DNA of 33,693 bases from Alphaproteobacteria bacterium (lineage in GTDB: Bacteria; Pseudomonadota; Alphaproteobacteria; ATCC43930; Allostellaceae), in assembly GCA_020852355.1 (NCBI GenBank), contig JADZBA010000419.1, positions 1 to 33,693 of the forward strand. Direction: 5' to 3'. The translations under genes were made by a program, and so were the position numbers. Positions within the stretch are counted from its first letter, which is position 1. Every line of letters starts with the position of its first letter. Below, one piece after another: positions 21,880 through 33,693 of the stretch. Below the pieces are notes generated by a model. The model worked only from the letters and a program-made list of their open reading frames with translations, was not told the origin of the DNA and searched no databases.

Positions 21880-23508
21880 ATGCTCCGCCAGGCCGTCCTG
21901 GACCAGCCCGTCCCCTCCGTCGAGCATCGCCGCCGGGCGATCGAGGCGACGCCACTGCCGGCCAACATGGGGGCCCTGATCGATGCCGCCGCGGCGGCCG
22001 CTCCCGACCGGCTGGCCTGGAACTTCTTCGAGAGCGGCGAGACGATGACTTTCGCCGGGCTGCGGGTGGCGGTGAACCGGCTCGCCGCCGGCCTCGCCGC
22101 GGCCGGGGTGCGCAAGGGGACGCACGTCGCCGTCATGCTGCCCAACGTCGCCGCCTTCCCCTTGACCTGGCTGGCGCTGGCGCGGCTCGGCGCGGTGATG
22201 GTGCCGATGAACGTCGCCTACACGCCGCGCGAGATCGCCTACGTGGTCGAGGACGGCGACGTCGAGTGGGCGGTGGTCGACGCCACCTGCCTCGCCGGGT
22301 TCGCCCCGCCGCCGGGGCGCCTCGCGGCCGAGCGCATCTTCGTGGTCGGCGAGGCGACGCCGGGCCACCGCGCGTGGGAGACGCTCGGGGACGGGCAGCC
22401 CGACGACTTCGCGGCGCCGGAGCCGGTCGGCCACGACGACCTGCTGAACATCCAGTACACCTCGGGCACGACCGGGCTGCCCAAGGGCTGCATGCTGTCG
22501 CAGCGCTACTGGCTGCAGGCCGGGCTGGTCAACGCGCGGCGCGACGGGCGCGACTACGAGCGGATCCTGGCGGCGACGCCGTTCTTCTACATGGACCCGC
22601 AGTGGCTGCTGACGATGGCGCTGTGGCTGCGCGCGACGCTGTTCGTGGCGCGCCGGCAGAGCGCCACCCGGTTCATGGGCTGGGTCCGCGAGCGCCGCAT
22701 CCAGTTCACCCTCTTCCCGGCCATCGTCGTCAAGCAGCCGCCGGATCTGCGCGACCCCGACAACGAGATCGTGCGGGTCAACGTCTACGGCCTGCCGAAG
22801 CACGAGCATGCGGAGCTGGAGCGGCGCTTCGACTTCGTCGCGCGCGAGGCCTACGGCATGACCGAGATCGGCTCGGGCATGTTCATGCCGATCGAGGCGG
22901 TCGACATGGTCGGCTCGGGTTCCTGCGGCATCCCCTCGCCGTTCCGCGAGGCGCGCATCGTCGGCGCCGACGGACGGCCGGTGCCGCCGGGCGGGGAAGG
23001 CGAGCTGGAGATCCGCGGGCCCGGGATGCTGCATGGCTACTACAAGAATCCCGAGGCGACCGAGGCCGCCTTTCATGACGGCTGGTTCCGCACCGGCGAT
23101 CTCTTCCGCCAGGACGCGCGCGGCTACTTCCACATCGTCGGGCGGATCAAGGACATGATCCGGCGCGCGGGCGAGAACATCGCGGCGCGCGAGGTCGAGG
23201 CGGTGCTGGGTGCCCTGCCCGAGGTCCGCGAGGCGGCGGTCGTGCCGGTGCCCGACCCCGTCCGCGGCGAGGAGGTGAAGGCCTATGTCGTGCTCCAGCC
23301 CGGGCTGACCCGCGACGAAGTGCCGCCCGAGCGCATCCTCGGCCATTGCGCCGCCGGCCTCGCGCGCTTCAAGGTGCCGCGCTACCTCGCCTACCGCGAC
23401 GCGTTTCCCAAGACGCCGTCGGAGAAGATCGCCAAGCGGCTCCTGGTGCAGGGCGAGAGCGACCTGCGGACGGACAGCTGGGACCGGGTCGAGGGTCGCT
23501 GGCGATAG
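21880..23508 (+). CDS. AMP-forming acyl-CoA ligase (ANL superfamily)
   Basis: A 542-residue adenylate-forming enzyme that activates a carboxylic acid with ATP and CoA. The P-loop-like A3 motif YTSGTTGLPKG is at 193-203; later motifs are EAYGMTEIG (A5), GWFRTGDL (A7) and GRIKDMIRRAGENIAAREVE (A8). The C-terminal A10 lysine is Lys516 in KTPSEKIAKRLL, where the usual glycine before the lysine is glutamate. The N-terminus resembles crotonobetaine/carnitine-CoA ligase (CaiC-like) and medium-chain ligases, so a short or amino-substituted acid is plausible. GAAGGGA precedes the ATG. It sits between the hotdog protein and a solute-binding protein, suggesting that it activates the imported compound. 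Confidence 0.93.
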   Translation: MLRQAVLDQPVPSVEHRRRAIEATPLPANMGALIDAAAAAAPDRLAWNFFESGETMTFAGLRVAVNRLAAGLAAAGVRKGTHVAVMLPNVAAFPLTWLALARLGAVMVPMNVAYTPREIAYVVEDGDVEWAVVDATCLAGFAPPPGRLAAERIFVVGEATPGHRAWETLGDGQPDDFAAPEPVGHDDLLNIQYTSGTTGLPKGCMLSQRYWLQAGLVNARRDGRDYERILAATPFFYMDPQWLLTMALWLRATLFVARRQSATRFMGWVRERRIQFTLFPAIVVKQPPDLRDPDNEIVRVNVYGLPKHEHAELERRFDFVAREAYGMTEIGSGMFMPIEAVDMVGSGSCGIPSPFREARIVGADGRPVPPGGEGELEIRGPGMLHGYYKNPEATEAAFHDGWFRTGDLFRQDARGYFHIVGRIKDMIRRAGENIAAREVEAVLGALPEVREAAVVPVPDPVRGEEVKAYVVLQPGLTRDEVPPERILGHCAAGLARFKVPRYLAYRDAFPKTPSEKIAKRLLVQGESDLRTDSWDRVEGRWR

Positions 23509-23541
23509 GGGCATTCACGGGGTGACAGGAGGGCAACGACC

Positions 23542-24609
23542 ATGACTTCGTTCCGCCGCAGACAGATCCTGAAGGGCGCGCTGGCGACGCTCGCCGCCGT
23601 CGCGCCGGCCACGGCCGCGCTGGCCCAGGCCGAGCCGCCCAAGCCGGCGCAGATCGTCATCAACGATTCCGGCGGCGCCATGCAGAGCGCCATGCGCCAG
23701 CTCTTCTACAGCGAGTTCGAGCGCCGCTACGGCATCAAGGTGGTGGCCACCAGCCCGGTCGACCTCGGCAAGCTGCAGGCCCAGGTGCAGACCGGCAACG
23801 TCGAGTGGACCGTCACCGAGATCGGCGGCGAGGACGCGATCCGCGCCGAGCGTTCCGGCCTGCTGGAGCGGCTCGACCTCAAGATCATCGACCTGTCGCG
23901 CTTTCCCAAGCATCTGCAGAATCGCGCCTACGTCTTTCCCAAGGCGGTCTACTCGACCGTGATGGGCTACCGCAGCGACGTCTTCAAGGAAGGCCAGCGG
24001 CCGAAGAGCTGGGCCGACTTCTGGGACGTCGCGAAGTTCCCGGGGCCACGCACGCTGCAGAACAGCCCGACCGACAACCTGGAGTTCGCGCTGCTCGCCG
24101 ACGGCGTCGCGGCGGACAAGCTCTATCCGCTCGACGTCGACCGCGCCTTCCGCAAGCTCGACCAGATCAAGAAGCACATCGCGGTGTGGTGGACCACCGG
24201 GGCGCAGTCGGCCCAGCTCCTGATCGACAAGGAAGCGGTCCTCGGCACGGCCTGGAATGGCCGCTACTACGCCGCGATCGCCGCGGGCGCGCCGCTGGTC
24301 ATGGAATGGAATCAGGGGTCGATCAAGGAATCCGCGTTCGGCATCCCCAAGGGGGCGAAGAACGCCTATTGGGGTCAGAAGTTCCTGGCTCTCGCCGCCG
24401 AGGCGGAGCCGCAGGGCAAGTACGCCGACATCATCGGCTATCCCGGGCTGAACCTCGACGCGACGAAGTTCACCGATCCGAAGATGATCCCCTACCTGCC
24501 GACCAGCCCGGACAACCTGCCCAAGCAGTTCTGGACGGACCTCGCCTGGTGGGCCGACAACGGCAACACCGTCAAGGAGCGCTGGTCGCGCTGGATGCTG
24601 CAGCAGTAG
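23542..24609 (+). CDS. ABC transporter substrate-binding protein (PotD-like, Tat-type signal)
   Basis: A 355-residue periplasmic binding protein of the extracellular solute-binding family 1/8 class, which includes polyamine-binding PotD. The N-terminus has a twin-arginine-like signal (RRRQILKGAL, hydrophobic core, cleavage near ALA-Q29). Typical blocks are VINDSGGAMQSAMRQLFY, WTVTEIGGEDAIRAE, PRTLQNSPTDNLEFALLADG and the C-terminal WTDLAWWADN. A strong AGGAGGG ribosome site precedes the ATG. It lies 33 bases after the ligase gene and ends 15 bases from a convergent gene, so no permease or ATPase follows. It may use a transporter encoded elsewhere. The ligand could be a polyamine, amino acid or carboxylate. 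Confidence 0.88.
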   Translation: MTSFRRRQILKGALATLAAVAPATAALAQAEPPKPAQIVINDSGGAMQSAMRQLFYSEFERRYGIKVVATSPVDLGKLQAQVQTGNVEWTVTEIGGEDAIRAERSGLLERLDLKIIDLSRFPKHLQNRAYVFPKAVYSTVMGYRSDVFKEGQRPKSWADFWDVAKFPGPRTLQNSPTDNLEFALLADGVAADKLYPLDVDRAFRKLDQIKKHIAVWWTTGAQSAQLLIDKEAVLGTAWNGRYYAAIAAGAPLVMEWNQGSIKESAFGIPKGAKNAYWGQKFLALAAEAEPQGKYADIIGYPGLNLDATKFTDPKMIPYLPTSPDNLPKQFWTDLAWWADNGNTVKERWSRWMLQQ

Positions 24610-26911: not shown

Positions 26912-27595
26912 TCAGGCGGCGCGGTCCGCCGCGTCGGGCTCGTGGAAGTCGATGGCCGCCAGGAACCTGGCCCGTCCGGCGCGGCCGTGCTCCTCGGCGC
27001 GGCGGCGCGCCAGGTCGGCGTCGCCCGCGAGGATCGCCTCGACGAGGCGCCGGTGCTCGGCATTGGCCTCGCCCATGTTGGCGCTGGGCTCGAACGAGCG
27101 GCGCCGGAAGAGCTGCAGCTTCTTGGTGTAGCCGAGATAGGCGGTCGCCACCTCGCGATTGCGGGCCGCAGCGACGATGCGCTCGTGCAGGCGGCTGTTG
27201 CGCTCGAAGAACGCCTCGCGGTCGGTGGCCGCGATGGCCGCGTCCATGCCGTCGACCAGCCGGACGAGCTCGCCCGCCCGGGCGGCGTCCACCGTCTGGG
27301 AGAGCTGGGCCGACGCGAAGGCGAACAGCAGGGTGGCGAGTTCGTAGATGTCGATGGCCTCGTCGACCGAGAGCGCGCGCACGAAGGCGCCGCGGTTCAT
27401 GATGACGGTCACGAGGCCGGTGCGCTCCAGTGCGCGCGCCGCCTCGCGCACGGGGCCGCGGCTGACGCCGAGCCGGCGGGCGAGCGCGATCTCGTTGAGG
27501 CGCTCGCCGGGGGCCAGCGCGCCCTCCAGGATCATGCGCTCGAGCGCCCCCTGGACGCGGCTCGCCAGCGGCGCGGGGGCGAGCGCGCCGGTCAT
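26912..27595 (-). CDS. GntR-family (FCD domain) transcriptional regulator
   Basis: A 227-residue regulator. The N-terminal winged helix (about 10-70) contains LNEIALARRLGVSRGPVREAARALERTGLV, the GntR signature. The all-helical FCD effector domain (about 85-215) has metal or ligand residues in NSRLHERI, AEHRRLVEAI and EEHGRAGR. FCD regulators commonly respond to small organic acids. An alternative ATG at 27625 would add ten residues, but that codon lies within the palindrome at 27624-27635, a likely operator, so the later start was preferred. It is divergent from the CoA-transferase/crotonase/ABC set and is its probable repressor. Confidence 0.92.
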   Translation of the reverse strand: MTGALAPAPLASRVQGALERMILEGALAPGERLNEIALARRLGVSRGPVREAARALERTGLVTVIMNRGAFVRALSVDEAIDIYELATLLFAFASAQLSQTVDAARAGELVRLVDGMDAAIAATDREAFFERNSRLHERIVAAARNREVATAYLGYTKKLQLFRRRSFEPSANMGEANAEHRRLVEAILAGDADLARRRAEEHGRAGRARFLAAIDFHEPDAADRAA

Positions 27596-27623
27596 CGCGC
27601 CCGCGCGCCCGGACACGGGCGAC

Positions 27624-27635
27624 ATTGTTTACAAT
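27624..27635. promoter_or_regulatory. Candidate GntR operator
   Basis: ATTGTTTACAAT is an inverted repeat (ATTGT-N2-ACAAT) in the divergent region between the GntR/FCD gene and the CoA-transferase gene. FCD-type GntR proteins often bind short AT-rich palindromes with this TTGT...ACAA outline. It overlaps the candidate -35 element at 27628-27633, a repressor-like position. Confidence 0.6.
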
Positions 27636-27768: not shown

Positions 27769-28977
27769 ATGAACGACGCCACCCCTCACGCGGACAGCCG
27801 GTCGACGGCCGGCCTGCCGCTGCGCCGGATCAAGGTCCTCGACCTGACGGTGGCGCGTGCCGGGCCGACCTGCGTGCGCCATCTCGCCGACTGGGGCGCC
27901 GACGTCATCCGCATCGAGCCTCCCGCCGCGGGCGTGGGCGAGGTCGGCAACCGCGACGGCTTCGACTTTCAGAACCTGCATCGCAACAAGCGGGCGATGA
28001 AGCTCGATCTCAAGTCCGAGAAGGGCAAGGAGATCTTCTTCCGCATGGCCGCCGGCGCCGACGTGATCGTCGAGAACATGCGAGCACAGGTGAAGTATCG
28101 CCTGGGCGTCGACTACGAGAGCGTGCGGCGGATCAACCCGCGCATCGTCTATGCCTCGATCTCCGGCTTCGGCCAGGACGGTCCCTACGGCCACCGCGCC
28201 GGCGTCGACCAGATCGCCCAGGGCATGGGCGGGCTGATGTCGATCACCGGCGAACCGGGGCAGAAGCCGCTACGCGTCGGCATCCCCATCGCCGACCTCA
28301 CCGCCGGCAACCTGCTGGCGCTGGCCACCATGATGGCGCTCTTCCAGCGCGAGGAGACCGGCGAGGGCCGCTGGGTGCATACCAGCCTGCTGGAGGCGCA
28401 GGTCTTCATGCTCGACTTCCAGGCGTCACGCTGGCTGCTCGCCGGCGAGGTGGCGAAGCCCGCGGGCAACGACCATCCGACCTCGATTCCGACGGGCGTC
28501 TATCCGACCGCCGACCGGCCGATCACCATCGCCGCCTCCTCGCCGCGGCTGTGGGGGCGCTTCTGCGAGGCCCTCGGCCGGCCCGAATGGCTGGCGCGCC
28601 CGGAATGGTCGAACGGCGAAGGGCGCTCGCGCGACCGTGCCGCGATCAACCAGGCGATCGCCGAGGTGACGAGCGAGAAGCCGAGCCTGCACTGGATCGA
28701 GGTGCTCGACGGCGCCGGCATCCCCTGTGGCCCGATCAACACCATCGACCAGACGTTCGCCGACCCGCAGGTGCAGCATCTGGGCCTTGCCCGGCCGGTC
28801 GAGCATCCGCGGCTCGGCGCGCAGCGCGTGGTCGGCACGCCGATCAACCTCGAGGGCATCGAGGACAGCATCCGCATGCCGACCGCCGACGCCGGGCAGC
28901 ACACGGACGAGGTGCTGGCGGCCCTCGGCTACGACACCGCCGCCATCGCGAAGCTCCGCGCCGACGGCGTCATCTAG
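27769..28977 (+). CDS. CaiB/BaiF (class III) CoA transferase
   Basis: A 402-residue family III CoA transferase, which moves CoA between carboxylic acids through an aspartyl-CoA thioester. Asp176 in GIPIADLTAGN aligns with the catalytic aspartate of formyl-CoA transferase. Other family blocks are KVLDLTVARAGPTCVRHLADWGADVIRIE at the N-terminus (22-50), NLHRNKRAMKLDLKSEKGK, DVIVENM, and YASISGFGQDGPY (128-140). The start at 27769 follows GGGAGAG; an in-frame upstream ATG at 27625 lies within the promoter/operator and was rejected. It probably activates the acid imported by the ABC transporter encoded downstream. Donor and acceptor acids are unknown. Confidence 0.93.
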   Translation: MNDATPHADSRSTAGLPLRRIKVLDLTVARAGPTCVRHLADWGADVIRIEPPAAGVGEVGNRDGFDFQNLHRNKRAMKLDLKSEKGKEIFFRMAAGADVIVENMRAQVKYRLGVDYESVRRINPRIVYASISGFGQDGPYGHRAGVDQIAQGMGGLMSITGEPGQKPLRVGIPIADLTAGNLLALATMMALFQREETGEGRWVHTSLLEAQVFMLDFQASRWLLAGEVAKPAGNDHPTSIPTGVYPTADRPITIAASSPRLWGRFCEALGRPEWLARPEWSNGEGRSRDRAAINQAIAEVTSEKPSLHWIEVLDGAGIPCGPINTIDQTFADPQVQHLGLARPVEHPRLGAQRVVGTPINLEGIEDSIRMPTADAGQHTDEVLAALGYDTAAIAKLRADGVI

Positions 28978-29037: not shown

Positions 29038-29850
29038 ATGGACGGCGATTCGCGCATCGAGCTTCCCACCGGCAAGGTCCTGGCCGAGCGGCGCGACGGC
29101 GTCGGCTGGCTGACCTTCAACCAGCCGGAGCGGCGCAACGCGATCTCCGTCGAGATGTGGGACGGGATCGCCATCGCGGTGAACGCGTTCGCCGCCGATC
29201 CTCTGGTCCGCGTCGTCGTGATGCAGGGGGCCGGCGACAAGGCATTCACCGCCGGCGCCGACATCAGCGAGTTCGAGAAGGTGCGGGCCGACGCGGCGGC
29301 GCAGGAGGCCTACCGCGCCCGCTCGGCGGCGGCCGGTGCGGCATTCAAGGCGCTCGACAAGCCCCTGATCGCGATGATCCGCGGCTTCTGCATGGGCGGC
29401 GGCATGGCGATGGCGCTGCGTGCCGACATCCGCATCGCGTCCACGGATGCGCGCTTCGGCATCCCCGCGGCCCGCCTCGGCATCGCCTACGCCCAGGAGG
29501 CGCTCGCCCGCCTGACGGCGCTGACCGGCCCGTCGAAGGCCAAGATGATCATGTTCCTCGCCCGTCAGTACCCGGCGGCCGAGGCCCTCGACCTCGGCAT
29601 CGTCGACCTCGTGGTGGAGCCCGACGCGTTGGCGCCGACCGTGACCGCGATGGCGGCCGAGATGGCGGGCAACGCGCCGTTGTCGATCCGCGCCTCGAAG
29701 GCGATGATCGACGAGCTGGCGGTCGATCCGGCACAGCGCAACCCCGAACGCATGGCGGCGCTGGAGCGCGCCTGCTTCGATAGCGACGACTACAAGGAGG
29801 GCCGCCGGGCCTTCATGGAGAAGCGGCGCCCGGTATTCGTCGGGCACTAG
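29038..29850 (+). CDS. Crotonase-fold protein lacking both hydratase glutamates
   Basis: A 270-residue member of the enoyl-CoA hydratase/isomerase superfamily. Oxyanion-hole segments are intact: AFTAGADISEF (69-79) and CMGGGMAMAL (118-127). However, the positions equivalent to the two catalytic glutamates of mitochondrial enoyl-CoA hydratase are alanines (Ala124 and Ala144 in FGIPAARLG), so ordinary hydration of enoyl-CoA is unlikely. The C-terminus DYKEGRRAFMEKRRPVF is typical of the superfamily. Crotonase relatives also act as decarboxylases, isomerases, thioesterases and C-C hydrolases. AAGGAACGGAGAG precedes the ATG. The gene lies 60 bases after the CoA transferase, which would supply its CoA thioester. 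Confidence 0.9.
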   Translation: MDGDSRIELPTGKVLAERRDGVGWLTFNQPERRNAISVEMWDGIAIAVNAFAADPLVRVVVMQGAGDKAFTAGADISEFEKVRADAAAQEAYRARSAAAGAAFKALDKPLIAMIRGFCMGGGMAMALRADIRIASTDARFGIPAARLGIAYAQEALARLTALTGPSKAKMIMFLARQYPAAEALDLGIVDLVVEPDALAPTVTAMAAEMAGNAPLSIRASKAMIDELAVDPAQRNPERMAALERACFDSDDYKEGRRAFMEKRRPVFVGH

Positions 29851-29932
29851 GAACGCGAGGCGCGCGAGGCATCGGCCGGATCCGTCCGCAACGATGCCCG
29901 GCGACACCGAAACGGCAGGAGGAAACGGCACC

Positions 29933-30994
29933 ATGACGAACATCACGAGGCGCACGCTGCTCAAGGCGGGCGCGGCGCTGGGCACCGTCGGCGCGCTGGG
30001 CGGCCATCATGCGAGCGCGCAGGAGATGGGCCCGTACGAGCGGCAGCTCTACGAGGCCGCGAAGAAGGAGGGCCAGGTCACCTGGTACTCGGGGCAGCTC
30101 AGCGCCGAGCCGGGCGAGGCCGTCGGCCAGGCCTTCGCCGAACGCTATCCCGGCCTCAAGGCCAACGTCATCCGCAGCACCTCCCAGGTCGCCTTCCAGC
30201 GCCTGTCGCAGGACCTGCGCGCCCGCACGCCGCAGTGCGACATCCTGAGCTCGACGGATTCCGGCCACTACAGCTTCCTCAAGCGCGAGGGGCTGCTGAT
30301 GAAGTTCCGGCCGAAGAACGCCGACGGGATGATCGAGGCGGCGCGCAGGGGCGATCCCGACGACACCTTCCAGATCTGCTACTTCGGCCTTTATCTCATG
30401 GGCTACAACACCCAGAAGGTGTCGGCGGCCGATGCGCCGAAGAGCTGGACCGACCTGCTCGATCCGAAATGGAAGGACCAGATCGCCATCGGCCATCCGG
30501 GCTACAGCGGCGCCATCGGCATCTGGGCGCTGATGATGAAGCAGATGTACGGCGCCGACTACCTGAAGAAGCTCGAGCGCAACAAGCCGCAGATCGGGCG
30601 GTCCAGCATGGACCCGGTGACGCTGATGAACGGCGGCGAGCGCGCGATCGGCATCGCCATCCCGTCCGCCACGACGCTGCTCAGCATGTCGCGCGGCAAC
30701 CCGCTCAAGCTGATCTATCCGACCGACGGCACGGTGGCGACGCCGGCGCCGACCGCGATCATCGCCAACGCGCCGCACCCGAACGCCGCCAAGCTGTTCA
30801 TGGAGTTCGCGACCGGGCCCGAGTATTCGCGCGTGATCACCAGATTCTTCAATGAGTCTCTGCGTCCGGAGGTGCCGCCGCCGGTCGGCGGCCGGCCGCT
30901 CAATGAGATCAAGCTCATCATGCCGACCATGGCGGAGGCGGAGAAGGGCGTGCCGGAGATGCGGGAGGTCTGGCGCGACGTCTTCGGCGTCTGA
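29933..30994 (+). CDS. ABC transporter substrate-binding protein (Fbp/iron-type family, Tat signal)
   Basis: A 353-residue periplasmic binding protein of the class usually annotated as iron(III) or family 1 solute-binding. The N-terminal TRRTLLKAGAAL matches the twin-arginine consensus, with cleavage near ASA-Q30. Family blocks are AAKKEGQVTWYSG, FAERYPGLKANVIRSTSQ, LLDPKWKDQIAIGHPGYSGA and the C-terminal hinge PNAAKLFMEFATGPEYSRVI. The paired tyrosines of true iron binders were not confirmed, and relatives bind phosphonates, thiamine or carboxylates. AGGAGGA precedes the ATG at 29933. Fused permease and ATPase genes follow, giving a full importer. Confidence 0.9.
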   Translation: MTNITRRTLLKAGAALGTVGALGGHHASAQEMGPYERQLYEAAKKEGQVTWYSGQLSAEPGEAVGQAFAERYPGLKANVIRSTSQVAFQRLSQDLRARTPQCDILSSTDSGHYSFLKREGLLMKFRPKNADGMIEAARRGDPDDTFQICYFGLYLMGYNTQKVSAADAPKSWTDLLDPKWKDQIAIGHPGYSGAIGIWALMMKQMYGADYLKKLERNKPQIGRSSMDPVTLMNGGERAIGIAIPSATTLLSMSRGNPLKLIYPTDGTVATPAPTAIIANAPHPNAAKLFMEFATGPEYSRVITRFFNESLRPEVPPPVGGRPLNEIKLIMPTMAEAEKGVPEMREVWRDVFGV

Positions 30995-31085
30995 GCCGCG
31001 TCGTTCCCTCGCCCGCGGCGACCCGGCGATTGGCGCGCCGGGCTCCCGCGGGCCATCGCCTCCCCGAGGAGCGGATCGCCCGAGC

Positions 31086-32819
31086 ATGACCGACACGACC
31101 GCGCCGGGTGCCGCCGCCCGCACCGCCTCCCTTGCAGCCCGGCTGCGCAACGTCGAGCCGGCGACGCTGCTGTGGGTGGCGCTGGCGGCCGTGCTGCTGG
31201 TTCTCGTCGCCTATCCGCTCGGCAAGCTCCTCGTCGTCAGCTTCGAGACGCGGGGCACCGGCGCATTCACCGTCGACAACTACCTGACCGCCTACGGCCG
31301 CGCCCGCTACGTCGAGGCGCTGGTGCATTCGTTGGAGCTGGGGGCGCTGGCCGCGGCCATCGCCACCGTGCTGGCGGTGCCGATGGCCTGGGCGGTGTCG
31401 CGAACCGACATGCCGGGCAAGTGGGTGGTGTGGATCGCGGTACTCGGCGCCTTCATCCTGCCGCCCTTCCTCGCCGCGATCGGCTGGATCCTGCTGGCGG
31501 GACCCAATGCGGGCTTCATCAACCAGGTCTGGCGCTGGGCGACCGGTGCCTCCGCCCCGCTCGTCAACGTCTACACCTTTCCGGGCCTCGCCGCGGTCAT
31601 CGCGCTCCACTCCTTCCCGCTGGTCTTCATCTTCGTGAAGTCCGCCCTCGACCTCGTGTCCTCGGAGATGGAGGACGCGGCCAACATCCTGGGTGCGGGC
31701 ACCTGGTCGGCGACGCGGCGGATCACCCTGCCGCTCGTCCTGCCGGCCATCGTCGGCGGCACCATCGTCGTCTTCCTGGAGACGATCGCGCTCTTCGGCA
31801 CGCCGGCGATCATCGGCATTCCGGCGCGCATCAACGTCGTCACCACCCAGCTCTGGCAGTTCTTCGAGTATCCGGTACGGGTGGAGGTGGCGTCCGCCTA
31901 TGCGATGCCCCTGCTCGGCATCACCGTCGTCATGATCATCGCCCAGAGGCTGCTGCTCGCCCGCAAGGGCTTCGTCTCGCAGACCGGCAAGGGCGGCGAG
32001 CGGCGGCCGATCCGGCTCGGGCCCTGGCGCTGGGTCGTGTTCGCCTGGTGCGCGCTCGTCGGCCTGCTCGCCGTCGCCCTGCCGATGCTGGTGCTGGTCC
32101 AGGCGTCGTTCGCGAAGGGCTGGGGACGCGGCTTCAGCTTCGACAACCTGACGCTGAGCAACTACGAGTACCTGCTGTTCCGCCACGAGATGGCCATCCA
32201 GTCGATCTGGAACACGCTGCTCTTCTCCAGCCTCGCCGCGACGTTCGCCGCGGCGCTGGCGCTGCTCGTCGCCTACATCGCCGGCCGCCGGCTGGTGCCC
32301 TTCTCGGGCGCGCTCGGCTTCCTGGCGATGGCGCCCTTCGTCATTCCCGGCATCGTCATGGCGATCGGTTTCTACGCCGCCTATGCGGCGCCGCCGCTCG
32401 CCCTCTACGGCACCTCGATCATCATCGTGCTGGCCTTCACCGCGCGCTTCCTGCCGATCGCCTACGCCAACTCGACCGCCGCCATCCGCTCGGTGCACCC
32501 GGAGATGGAGGAGGCCGCCCGCATCCTGGGCAGCGGGCGGCTGCGCACGATCGCGCGCATCACCGCGCCGCTGATCCGCAAGAGCCTGCTCGGCGGCTGG
32601 CTGCTGGTCTTCATCGTCTCGGCGCGCGAGCTGTCCTCCGCGGTGTTCCTGGTCGGGCCCAAGACGCTGACGATGGCGGTGCTGATCTACGACCTCAGCG
32701 AAGCCGGAAATTTCGAGGTCGTGGCGGCGCTGGGCGGCCTGATGCTGGTGATCACGCTGGCGCTGGTCGCCGTCGGCACCAGGCTGGTCGGGCGCGACTT
32801 CATGCTGCGGAGGGAATAG
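31086..32819 (+). CDS. ABC transporter permease, fused two-domain (FbpB-type)
   Basis: A 577-residue inner-membrane protein made of two homologous permease domains, as in FbpB-type transporters, with about twelve helices. Each half has an EAA loop: EDAANILGAGTWSATRRITLP in the first and EEAARILGSGRLRTIARITAP in the second. The halves are joined by a hydrophilic linker (RKGFVSQTGKGGERRPIRLG). The start at 31086 opens MTDTTAPG shortly before the first helix. It lies 91 bases after the binding-protein gene and 3 bases before the ATPase gene, so the three form one importer. Substrate specificity is not set by this subunit. Confidence 0.93.
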   Translation: MTDTTAPGAAARTASLAARLRNVEPATLLWVALAAVLLVLVAYPLGKLLVVSFETRGTGAFTVDNYLTAYGRARYVEALVHSLELGALAAAIATVLAVPMAWAVSRTDMPGKWVVWIAVLGAFILPPFLAAIGWILLAGPNAGFINQVWRWATGASAPLVNVYTFPGLAAVIALHSFPLVFIFVKSALDLVSSEMEDAANILGAGTWSATRRITLPLVLPAIVGGTIVVFLETIALFGTPAIIGIPARINVVTTQLWQFFEYPVRVEVASAYAMPLLGITVVMIIAQRLLLARKGFVSQTGKGGERRPIRLGPWRWVVFAWCALVGLLAVALPMLVLVQASFAKGWGRGFSFDNLTLSNYEYLLFRHEMAIQSIWNTLLFSSLAATFAAALALLVAYIAGRRLVPFSGALGFLAMAPFVIPGIVMAIGFYAAYAAPPLALYGTSIIIVLAFTARFLPIAYANSTAAIRSVHPEMEEAARILGSGRLRTIARITAPLIRKSLLGGWLLVFIVSARELSSAVFLVGPKTLTMAVLIYDLSEAGNFEVVAALGGLMLVITLALVAVGTRLVGRDFMLRRE

Positions 32820-32822
32820 CGG

Positions 32823-33693
32823 ATGCCTCGTCTGGTCCTGCGGCGCCTGGGCAAGGTCTTCGGCACGACGACGGTGGTCGACGGCGTCGACCTGGCGCTG
32901 GAGGAGGGCGAGTTCGTGTCGCTGCTCGGCCCCTCGGGCTGCGGCAAGACGACGAGCCTGCGCATGATCGCCGGCTTCATCGAGCCCACCGCCGGCACCA
33001 TCGAGATGGACGGCCAGGTGATCTCGGCGCCGGGCTCGGTGCTGCCGCCCGAGCGCCGGCGCATGTCGATGATCTTCCAGAGCTACGCCATCTGGCCGAA
33101 CATGACGGTGGCCGAGAACGTCGCCTTCGGCCTCAAGCTGCGCAAGCTGGCCACTTCCGAGGTGACGCGCCGGGTCGGCGAGATCCTCGACATCGTGCAG
33201 ATGGGCCACCTCGCCGGCCGCTACCCCGCCGAGCTGTCGGGCGGCCAGCAGCAGCGCGTGGCTCTGGCCCGGGCGATCGTCGTCAAGCCGGCGGTGCTGC
33301 TCCTCGACGAGCCGCTCTCCAACCTCGACGCCAACCTGCGCGAGGAGATGCGCTTCGAGATCCGCCGCCTGCACGACGAGTTCCGCATCACCACCGTTTA
33401 CGTCACCCACGACCAGGCCGAGGCGATGGCGACGTCCGACCGCATCGCCGTCATGAACGCCGGCCGCATCGAGCAGGTCGACGCCCCCCACGTGCTCTAC
33501 ACGCGCCCCAGCACGCGCTTCGTCGCCGGTTTCATCGGCCGCACCAACCTGCTGGAGGGACGCTGGCAGGACGGCCACCTCGGCTTCGACGGCTTCGCCC
33601 TGCCGACCGCGGGGCTCGGCCTCGCCGCACCCCAGGGCGGGCCGACGGCGACGGTGTCGATCCGCCCGCAGGGCATGCGCCTGTACCGCGCCG
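32823..33693 (+). CDS. ABC transporter ATP-binding protein (FbpC/PotA type), 3' end outside window
   Basis: The first 290 codons are present and open to the window edge. Motifs are Walker A GPSGCGKTT (36-44), Q-loop Gln86 in IFQSYAIWPN, signature LSGGQQQ (138-144), Walker B VLLLDEP (158-164), D-loop SNLD and switch His196 in YVTHDQAEAMA. The C-terminal TOBE-type domain begins near residue 240 (RTNLLEG). This matches the roughly 350-residue CUT2/FbpC/PotA group, so about 50-70 residues are missing. It starts 3 bases after the permease stop and powers that transporter. Confidence 0.95.
   Translation, partial: MPRLVLRRLGKVFGTTTVVDGVDLALEEGEFVSLLGPSGCGKTTSLRMIAGFIEPTAGTIEMDGQVISAPGSVLPPERRRMSMIFQSYAIWPNMTVAENVAFGLKLRKLATSEVTRRVGEILDIVQMGHLAGRYPAELSGGQQQRVALARAIVVKPAVLLLDEPLSNLDANLREEMRFEIRRLHDEFRITTVYVTHDQAEAMATSDRIAVMNAGRIEQVDAPHVLYTRPSTRFVAGFIGRTNLLEGRWQDGHLGFDGFALPTAGLGLAAPQGGPTATVSIRPQGMRLYRA

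Follow-up and report, generated by a model that had tools for sequence, protein, structure and literature searches.

What reaction is catalyzed by a crotonase-fold protein that lacks the catalytic glutamates of a hydratase? The question is raised by one gene in the window, meaning here the whole 33,693-nucleotide stretch of alphaproteobacterial DNA that was analyzed. This gene is an intact reading frame of 270 amino acids, and its product matched PF00378 with 174 bits, which places it within the crotonase superfamily fold, and passed the cut-off of the PRK06127 subfamily (NF004781; 338.8 vs 291 bits). An AlphaFold2 model (pLDDT 92.9) was closest in a Foldseek search to the PDB folds 4k2n (TM 0.92) and 4olq, and YgfG was absent among the best 50 matches. 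These nearest solved folds (4k2n and 4olq/5c9g, from Magnetospirillum and Hyphomonas) share 36-38% identity with the window crotonase, and 4k2n and 4olq are named only by family, as putative hydratases. The features discussed below are collected in Table 1.

Table 1. Coordinates of features in the window, in its genome and in related loci.
Feature	Location	Strand	Remarks
AMP-binding acyl-CoA ligase, then second solute-binding protein (SBP_bac_8)	window 21880-24609	+	
GntR/FCD regulator	26912..27625	-	divergent from CaiB-crotonase operon
CaiB/BaiF (class III) CoA-transferase	27769..28977	+	PF02515, 370 bits; start codon inferred
Crotonase-fold protein, PRK06127 subfamily	29038..29850	+	Ala124/Ala144/Tyr151 and Arg83; proposed malonyl-type CoA-thioester decarboxylase
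Tat-signal solute-binding protein of ABC importer, SBP_bac_6-like	29933..30994	+	ORF 29894-30994, later ATG preferred
ABC permease of importer	31086..32819	+	ORF 30852-32819, start inferred
ABC ATPase of importer	32823..33693	+	truncated by window end
Further Glu-lacking crotonases, window's genome (G000)	C113:52-831, C354:30933-31682, C21:3961-4698		
Aldolase-adjacent gammaproteobacterial loci	L039 1939-2853; L045, L050, others		
Relative with Glu124 but without Glu144, with its importer and CaiB genes	L161 3400-9753	-	
PF00884 sulfatase-like genes	L197 5159-6721, L205 10052-11548, L207 9888-11405		
Hexapeptide proteins downstream of MatB	L207 13029-13628, L197 2940-3593		

HMMER alignments to the solved crotonases 5z7r, 9qwv and 5zai set GGGMA of the window protein over GGGCE and FGIPA over FGQPE, with Ala124 at the position of Glu144 and Ala144 at that of Glu164 of rat enoyl-CoA hydratase (numbering per PMC3584854). 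The glutamate pair of the rat ECHS1-type hydratase is therefore absent in alignment to solved hydratases. The sequence-only reading had arrived at both replacements by eye, and the alignments agreed, with no Glu or Asp at either site. It had also described the oxyanion-hole segments as intact, as we observed among 47 aligned homologues, where G73, G120 and G122 were invariant and A74 and G121 were at least 90% conserved; the two-amide oxyanion hole of the superfamily (A74, GGG120-122) is thus retained. Ala144, Tyr151, Arg83 and Arg132 were likewise invariant in the 47 aligned sequences. Because the acid/base residues for hydration are missing, the hydratase label is unsafe and, judged from sequence, probably wrong. 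Membership in NF004781 brings a family name that implies hydration, yet the catalytic residues required for it are lacking.

To set this in a wider frame we assembled 148 homologues with at least 39% identity to the window crotonase, drawn from 61 related GTDB-genome loci, plasmid loci and stretches of same-class genomes. Ala144 and Tyr151 occurred together in 138 of them, a recurrence which argues that the glutamate loss is neither a chance event nor a sequencing error, and which bears out the earlier doubt about a plain enoyl-CoA hydratase. The double alanine proposed in that reading stood only in part as a trait of the group, since Ala144 is the one fixed residue while position 124 is merely small (Ala in 85 of the 138, Gly in 37, Asn in 10, Ser in 3 and others in 3). 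Two features that the reading did not mention are the near-invariant Tyr151, within the motif PA[AGV][KR]L[GS]x[GAS]Y and at a site where hydratases have Pro, and Arg83, found in 135 of the 138. The same Ala144/Tyr151 pattern was observed in the other PRK06127 members tested. Small side groups included kin of 4olq, with Pro144 and the shared Tyr, kin of 4k2n, which retain Glu124 and lack Glu144, and a third with Asp124 beside Ala144 and Tyr151. The window's own genome encodes three more crotonases without one or both glutamates, with the patterns AAY, GAY and DAY.

The Ala/Tyr family was separate from the Glu-bearing hydratases in two maximum-likelihood trees (support 95/90 and 94/91). Escherichia coli CaiD, a long branch, grouped with the Glu-bearing hydratases, and YgfG fell on the side of the Ala/Tyr family in both trees, but its branch is also long and its placement weak. 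The family had been thought common in Alphaproteobacteria, and we found profile matches of E 1e-60 or better in 126 of 289 sampled alphaproteobacterial genomes, some of these matches being close relatives that do not belong to the Ala/Tyr group. It is not confined to that class, however, with loci also in many gammaproteobacteria, some betaproteobacteria and a few genomes titled Acidimicrobiia, actinobacterium or Deltaproteobacteria. Our literature search found no paper mentioning PRK06127, in keeping with the earlier remark that no reaction had been assigned, and searches on Glu-less crotonases with CaiB and on malonyl-CoA synthase (MatB) with CaiB returned nothing relevant. We know of no assay of a crotonase from this subfamily, which is widespread and uncharacterized.

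The gene upstream of the crotonase encodes a class III CoA-transferase, as indicated by PF02515 and by the active-site Asp of its GVD, which aligned with the Asp of GYD in two solved transferases and which we take to be the catalytic residue of the class. The nearest solved relatives of this transferase were succinate-hydroxymethylglutarate CoA-transferase and formyl-CoA transferase. The sequence-only reading had the crotonase acting on an imported acyl-CoA, which we revise, as cells do not take up CoA esters; the importer encoded downstream would instead deliver a free acid, onto which the transferase would load CoA. Assignment of the importer to 2-aminoethylphosphonate uptake was rejected, with PhnS2 and PhnT2 cut-offs missed (87.3 vs 392.75 bits, and 333.7 vs 457.7 bits for a protein cut off at the window end), and the regulator also missed the curated cut-off for PhnR. 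A regulator of the same kind, for which the best NCBIfam match was TIGR03338, below cut-off, was observed in a Roseivivax plasmid operon. Further upstream, the ligase and SBP_bac_8 pair was also found ahead of the operon in Stella L021, and these two genes may serve the pathway of the crotonase operon. The ligase was rejected as a malonyl-CoA synthase (231 vs 558 bits).

The placement of CaiB beside the crotonase, to which significance had been attached earlier, proved to be conserved. Of the 136 Ala144/Tyr151 loci with enough sequence ahead of the crotonase to hold another gene, 79 had CaiB immediately before it, compared with none of 33 other crotonases in the same set of loci (5 of 34 had it downstream), a control that is weak because the loci were picked for the Ala144/Tyr151 family. 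The importer also recurs: gene order in the window is conserved in Stella vacuolata with 73-88% identity (87% for the permease, in strain L021), and the same importer type was observed in Stella, Reyranella, Caenimonas and Variovorax. Other relatives carry tripartite-tricarboxylate or TRAP transporters in its place. Roseobacter operons carry a separate PaaI-type thioesterase. Gammaproteobacterial relatives have an HpcH/HpaI (CitE-like) aldolase directly before the crotonase and an acyl-CoA dehydrogenase nearby on the other strand, and some relatives adjoin amidases, PrpD, or IPMDH- or Ldh-type enzymes. One relative with Glu124 but without Glu144, from a genome of the same taxonomic order as the window, has the same ABC importer type and a CaiB gene beside it.

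We also observed a linkage of this crotonase to MatB, which is reported here for the first time in the alphaproteobacterial family f110, in Roseobacter plasmids and in one further genus (g36), with MatB called only above the curated NF005702 cut-off (558 bits). Both genes were present in 43 of the 61 f110 genomes searched, and in 21 of these 43, spanning six genera, they lay within 6 kb, compared with 0.27 expected at random places under a treatment of these related genomes as independent. In two of them (G330, G346) both genes share a strand, with the crotonase first and MatB following after 24 bp. Three species of g36 have the order GntR, crotonase, 47 bp, MatB, with the crotonase sitting where malonyl-CoA decarboxylase (MatA) often adjoins MatB in other genomes. 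On plasmids of Roseivivax and Octadecabacter, MatB (801 and 780 bits, respectively) and GntR are divergent from CaiB-crotonase-thioesterase. Mapped onto the tree, MatB linkage required four changes, at least two of them forced by well-supported branches, and it is a minority arrangement among the relatives. The window's genome had no MatB match at E 1e-100 and carries a classical MatA, so plain malonyl-CoA is not obviously the task of the window enzyme. We rejected the crotonase as a general stand-in for a missing MatA, since MatA is present elsewhere in that genome and in four MatB-linked genomes (G109, G033, G162, G260).

Known decarboxylating systems share several of these features. The methylmalonyl-CoA decarboxylase of E. 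coli (YgfG/ScpB), 31% identical to the window crotonase, has the same fold and oxyanion hole, and its Tyr140, presumably part of the active site, corresponds to Tyr151 in the alignment of LGIAY with LGVPY. It too has an adjacent CoA-transferase gene, scpC, whereas the window partner is of CaiB/BaiF type. In the window protein Ala74 and Ala124 stand in place of YgfG His66, which we take to be the proton donor, and Glu113; should both enzymes run the same reaction, the proton must come from a different donor. The equivalog cut-off for YgfG (NF008506) was missed (155.7 vs 257 bits). Formyl-CoA transferase and oxalyl-CoA decarboxylase (Frc/Oxc) run as a CoA-recycling cycle, and the window pair resembles them in joining a class III CoA-transferase to a second enzyme on a diacid, with an acyl-CoA product that could recycle CoA; Oxc, however, is a thiamine-diphosphate enzyme acting on oxalyl-CoA, and the window partner is crotonase-fold. 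In malonate decarboxylase the crotonase-fold MdcDE uses two main-chain amides as an oxyanion hole that stabilizes the transition state of decarboxylation, in a cycle with the transferase MdcA (PMC5534430). That system differs in using an acyl-carrier protein (MdcC) and a heterodimeric, biotin-independent decarboxylase (MdcD-MdcE) related to carboxyltransferases.

We propose that the window crotonase decarboxylates a malonyl-type CoA ester by means of its oxyanion hole and that CaiB passes CoA on from the resulting acyl-CoA to the next imported diacid, a reading to which we give about even chances. The hydration acid/base pair is gone while the oxyanion hole, the main need of malonyl-thioester decarboxylation, is kept; Tyr151 aligns with YgfG Tyr140; MatB is linked in three settings; and the trees set the family apart from Glu-bearing hydratases with 94-95% support. 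A diacid substrate is favored by the dicarboxylate and oxalate enzymes nearest to the transferase and by the tripartite-tricarboxylate and TRAP transporters that replace the importer. Import, CoA transfer and decarboxylation are proposed from sequence and gene linkage, and the CoA cycle by analogy with Frc/Oxc and MdcA/MdcDE. The periplasmic binding protein and ABC importer would take up a small (di)acid, which CaiB would load with CoA; the backbone of Ala74 and Gly121, as the oxyanion hole, would bind the thioester carbonyl, and the carboxylate would enter the Ala124/Ala144 pocket, emptied of acidic side chains and close to Tyr151. Loss of CO2 would leave a thioester enolate to be protonated, with no cofactor, and the acyl-CoA product would then serve as CoA donor for the next acid. 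We infer the reaction, the substrate class and the roles of Tyr151 and Arg83 alike, and a 2-substituted malonyl-CoA seems a more likely preferred substrate than malonyl-CoA itself.

The aldolase, amidase and PrpD contexts of relatives indicate that the substrate may vary or that the reaction is some other enolate chemistry. The sequence-only reading had named decarboxylation or bond cleavage, and while the MatB linkage and the YgfG-type Tyr lead us to favor the former, we retain the latter as a rival in which the enzyme would make or break another C-C bond, as a retro-Claisen or retro-aldol lyase or a beta-keto hydrolase, on a keto- or hydroxy-diacid CoA ester supplied by CaiB. The aldolase and divergent dehydrogenase of gammaproteobacteria and the PrpD, IPMDH- and Ldh-type neighbors would suit such a role, as would the precedent of the Anabaena beta-diketone hydrolase, a Glu-less crotonase that performs C-C hydrolysis (PMC3584854). 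The linkage to MatB is nevertheless left unexplained by it. Crotonase C-C hydrolases also depend on His/Asp residues, and no His was observed among the invariant or near-invariant positions of the 47 aligned sequences, and we consider this rival unlikely.

More doubtful again is a hydratase, dehydratase or isomerase in which other groups, for example Tyr151, Arg83 or water, replace both glutamates. The NCBIfam name and the resemblance of a crotonase beside CaiB to the E. coli cai operon, with its crotonobetainyl-CoA hydratase CaiD, would speak for it, but in all 138 sequences the second glutamate site is Ala, and in most of them Ala, Gly or Asn fills the first, and CaiD itself falls with the Glu-bearing hydratases from which the family stands apart. 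We find it improbable, more so than either of these rivals, that the protein is a thioesterase, a CoA-ester racemase or epimerase, or a non-catalytic acyl-CoA carrier serving the transferase. Non-catalytic crotonases do exist, EchA6 of Mycobacterium tuberculosis reportedly among them; however, the PAAxLGxGY segment, Arg83 and the oxyanion hole are strongly conserved among sequences of 40-77% identity, which speaks for catalysis, and the Roseobacter operons already have their separate thioesterase.

Should the subfamily consist of malonyl-type decarboxylases, many pathway reconstructions would be wrong at the step now called enoyl-CoA hydratase, and the operon of importer, transferase and decarboxylase would offer a testable dicarboxylic-acid route in soil and marine bacteria. 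Only tentatively, and with less confidence than for the window pair, do we extend the reading to a widespread proteobacterial two-gene module, in which CaiB/BaiF and a Glu-free crotonase might decarboxylate imported (substituted) malonates with self-recycling CoA, sometimes primed by MatB, and with no ATP per turnover, acyl-carrier protein, biotin or thiamine diphosphate.

Other genes were also observed around MatB. A PF00884 sulfatase-like gene lies between CaiB and MatB in several f110 genomes, and a hexapeptide protein adjoins MatB downstream at two loci, with the L207 copy resembling gamma-carbonic anhydrase, CaiE and PaaY. This neighbor fits CO2 release, but it may equally be thioesterase-like.
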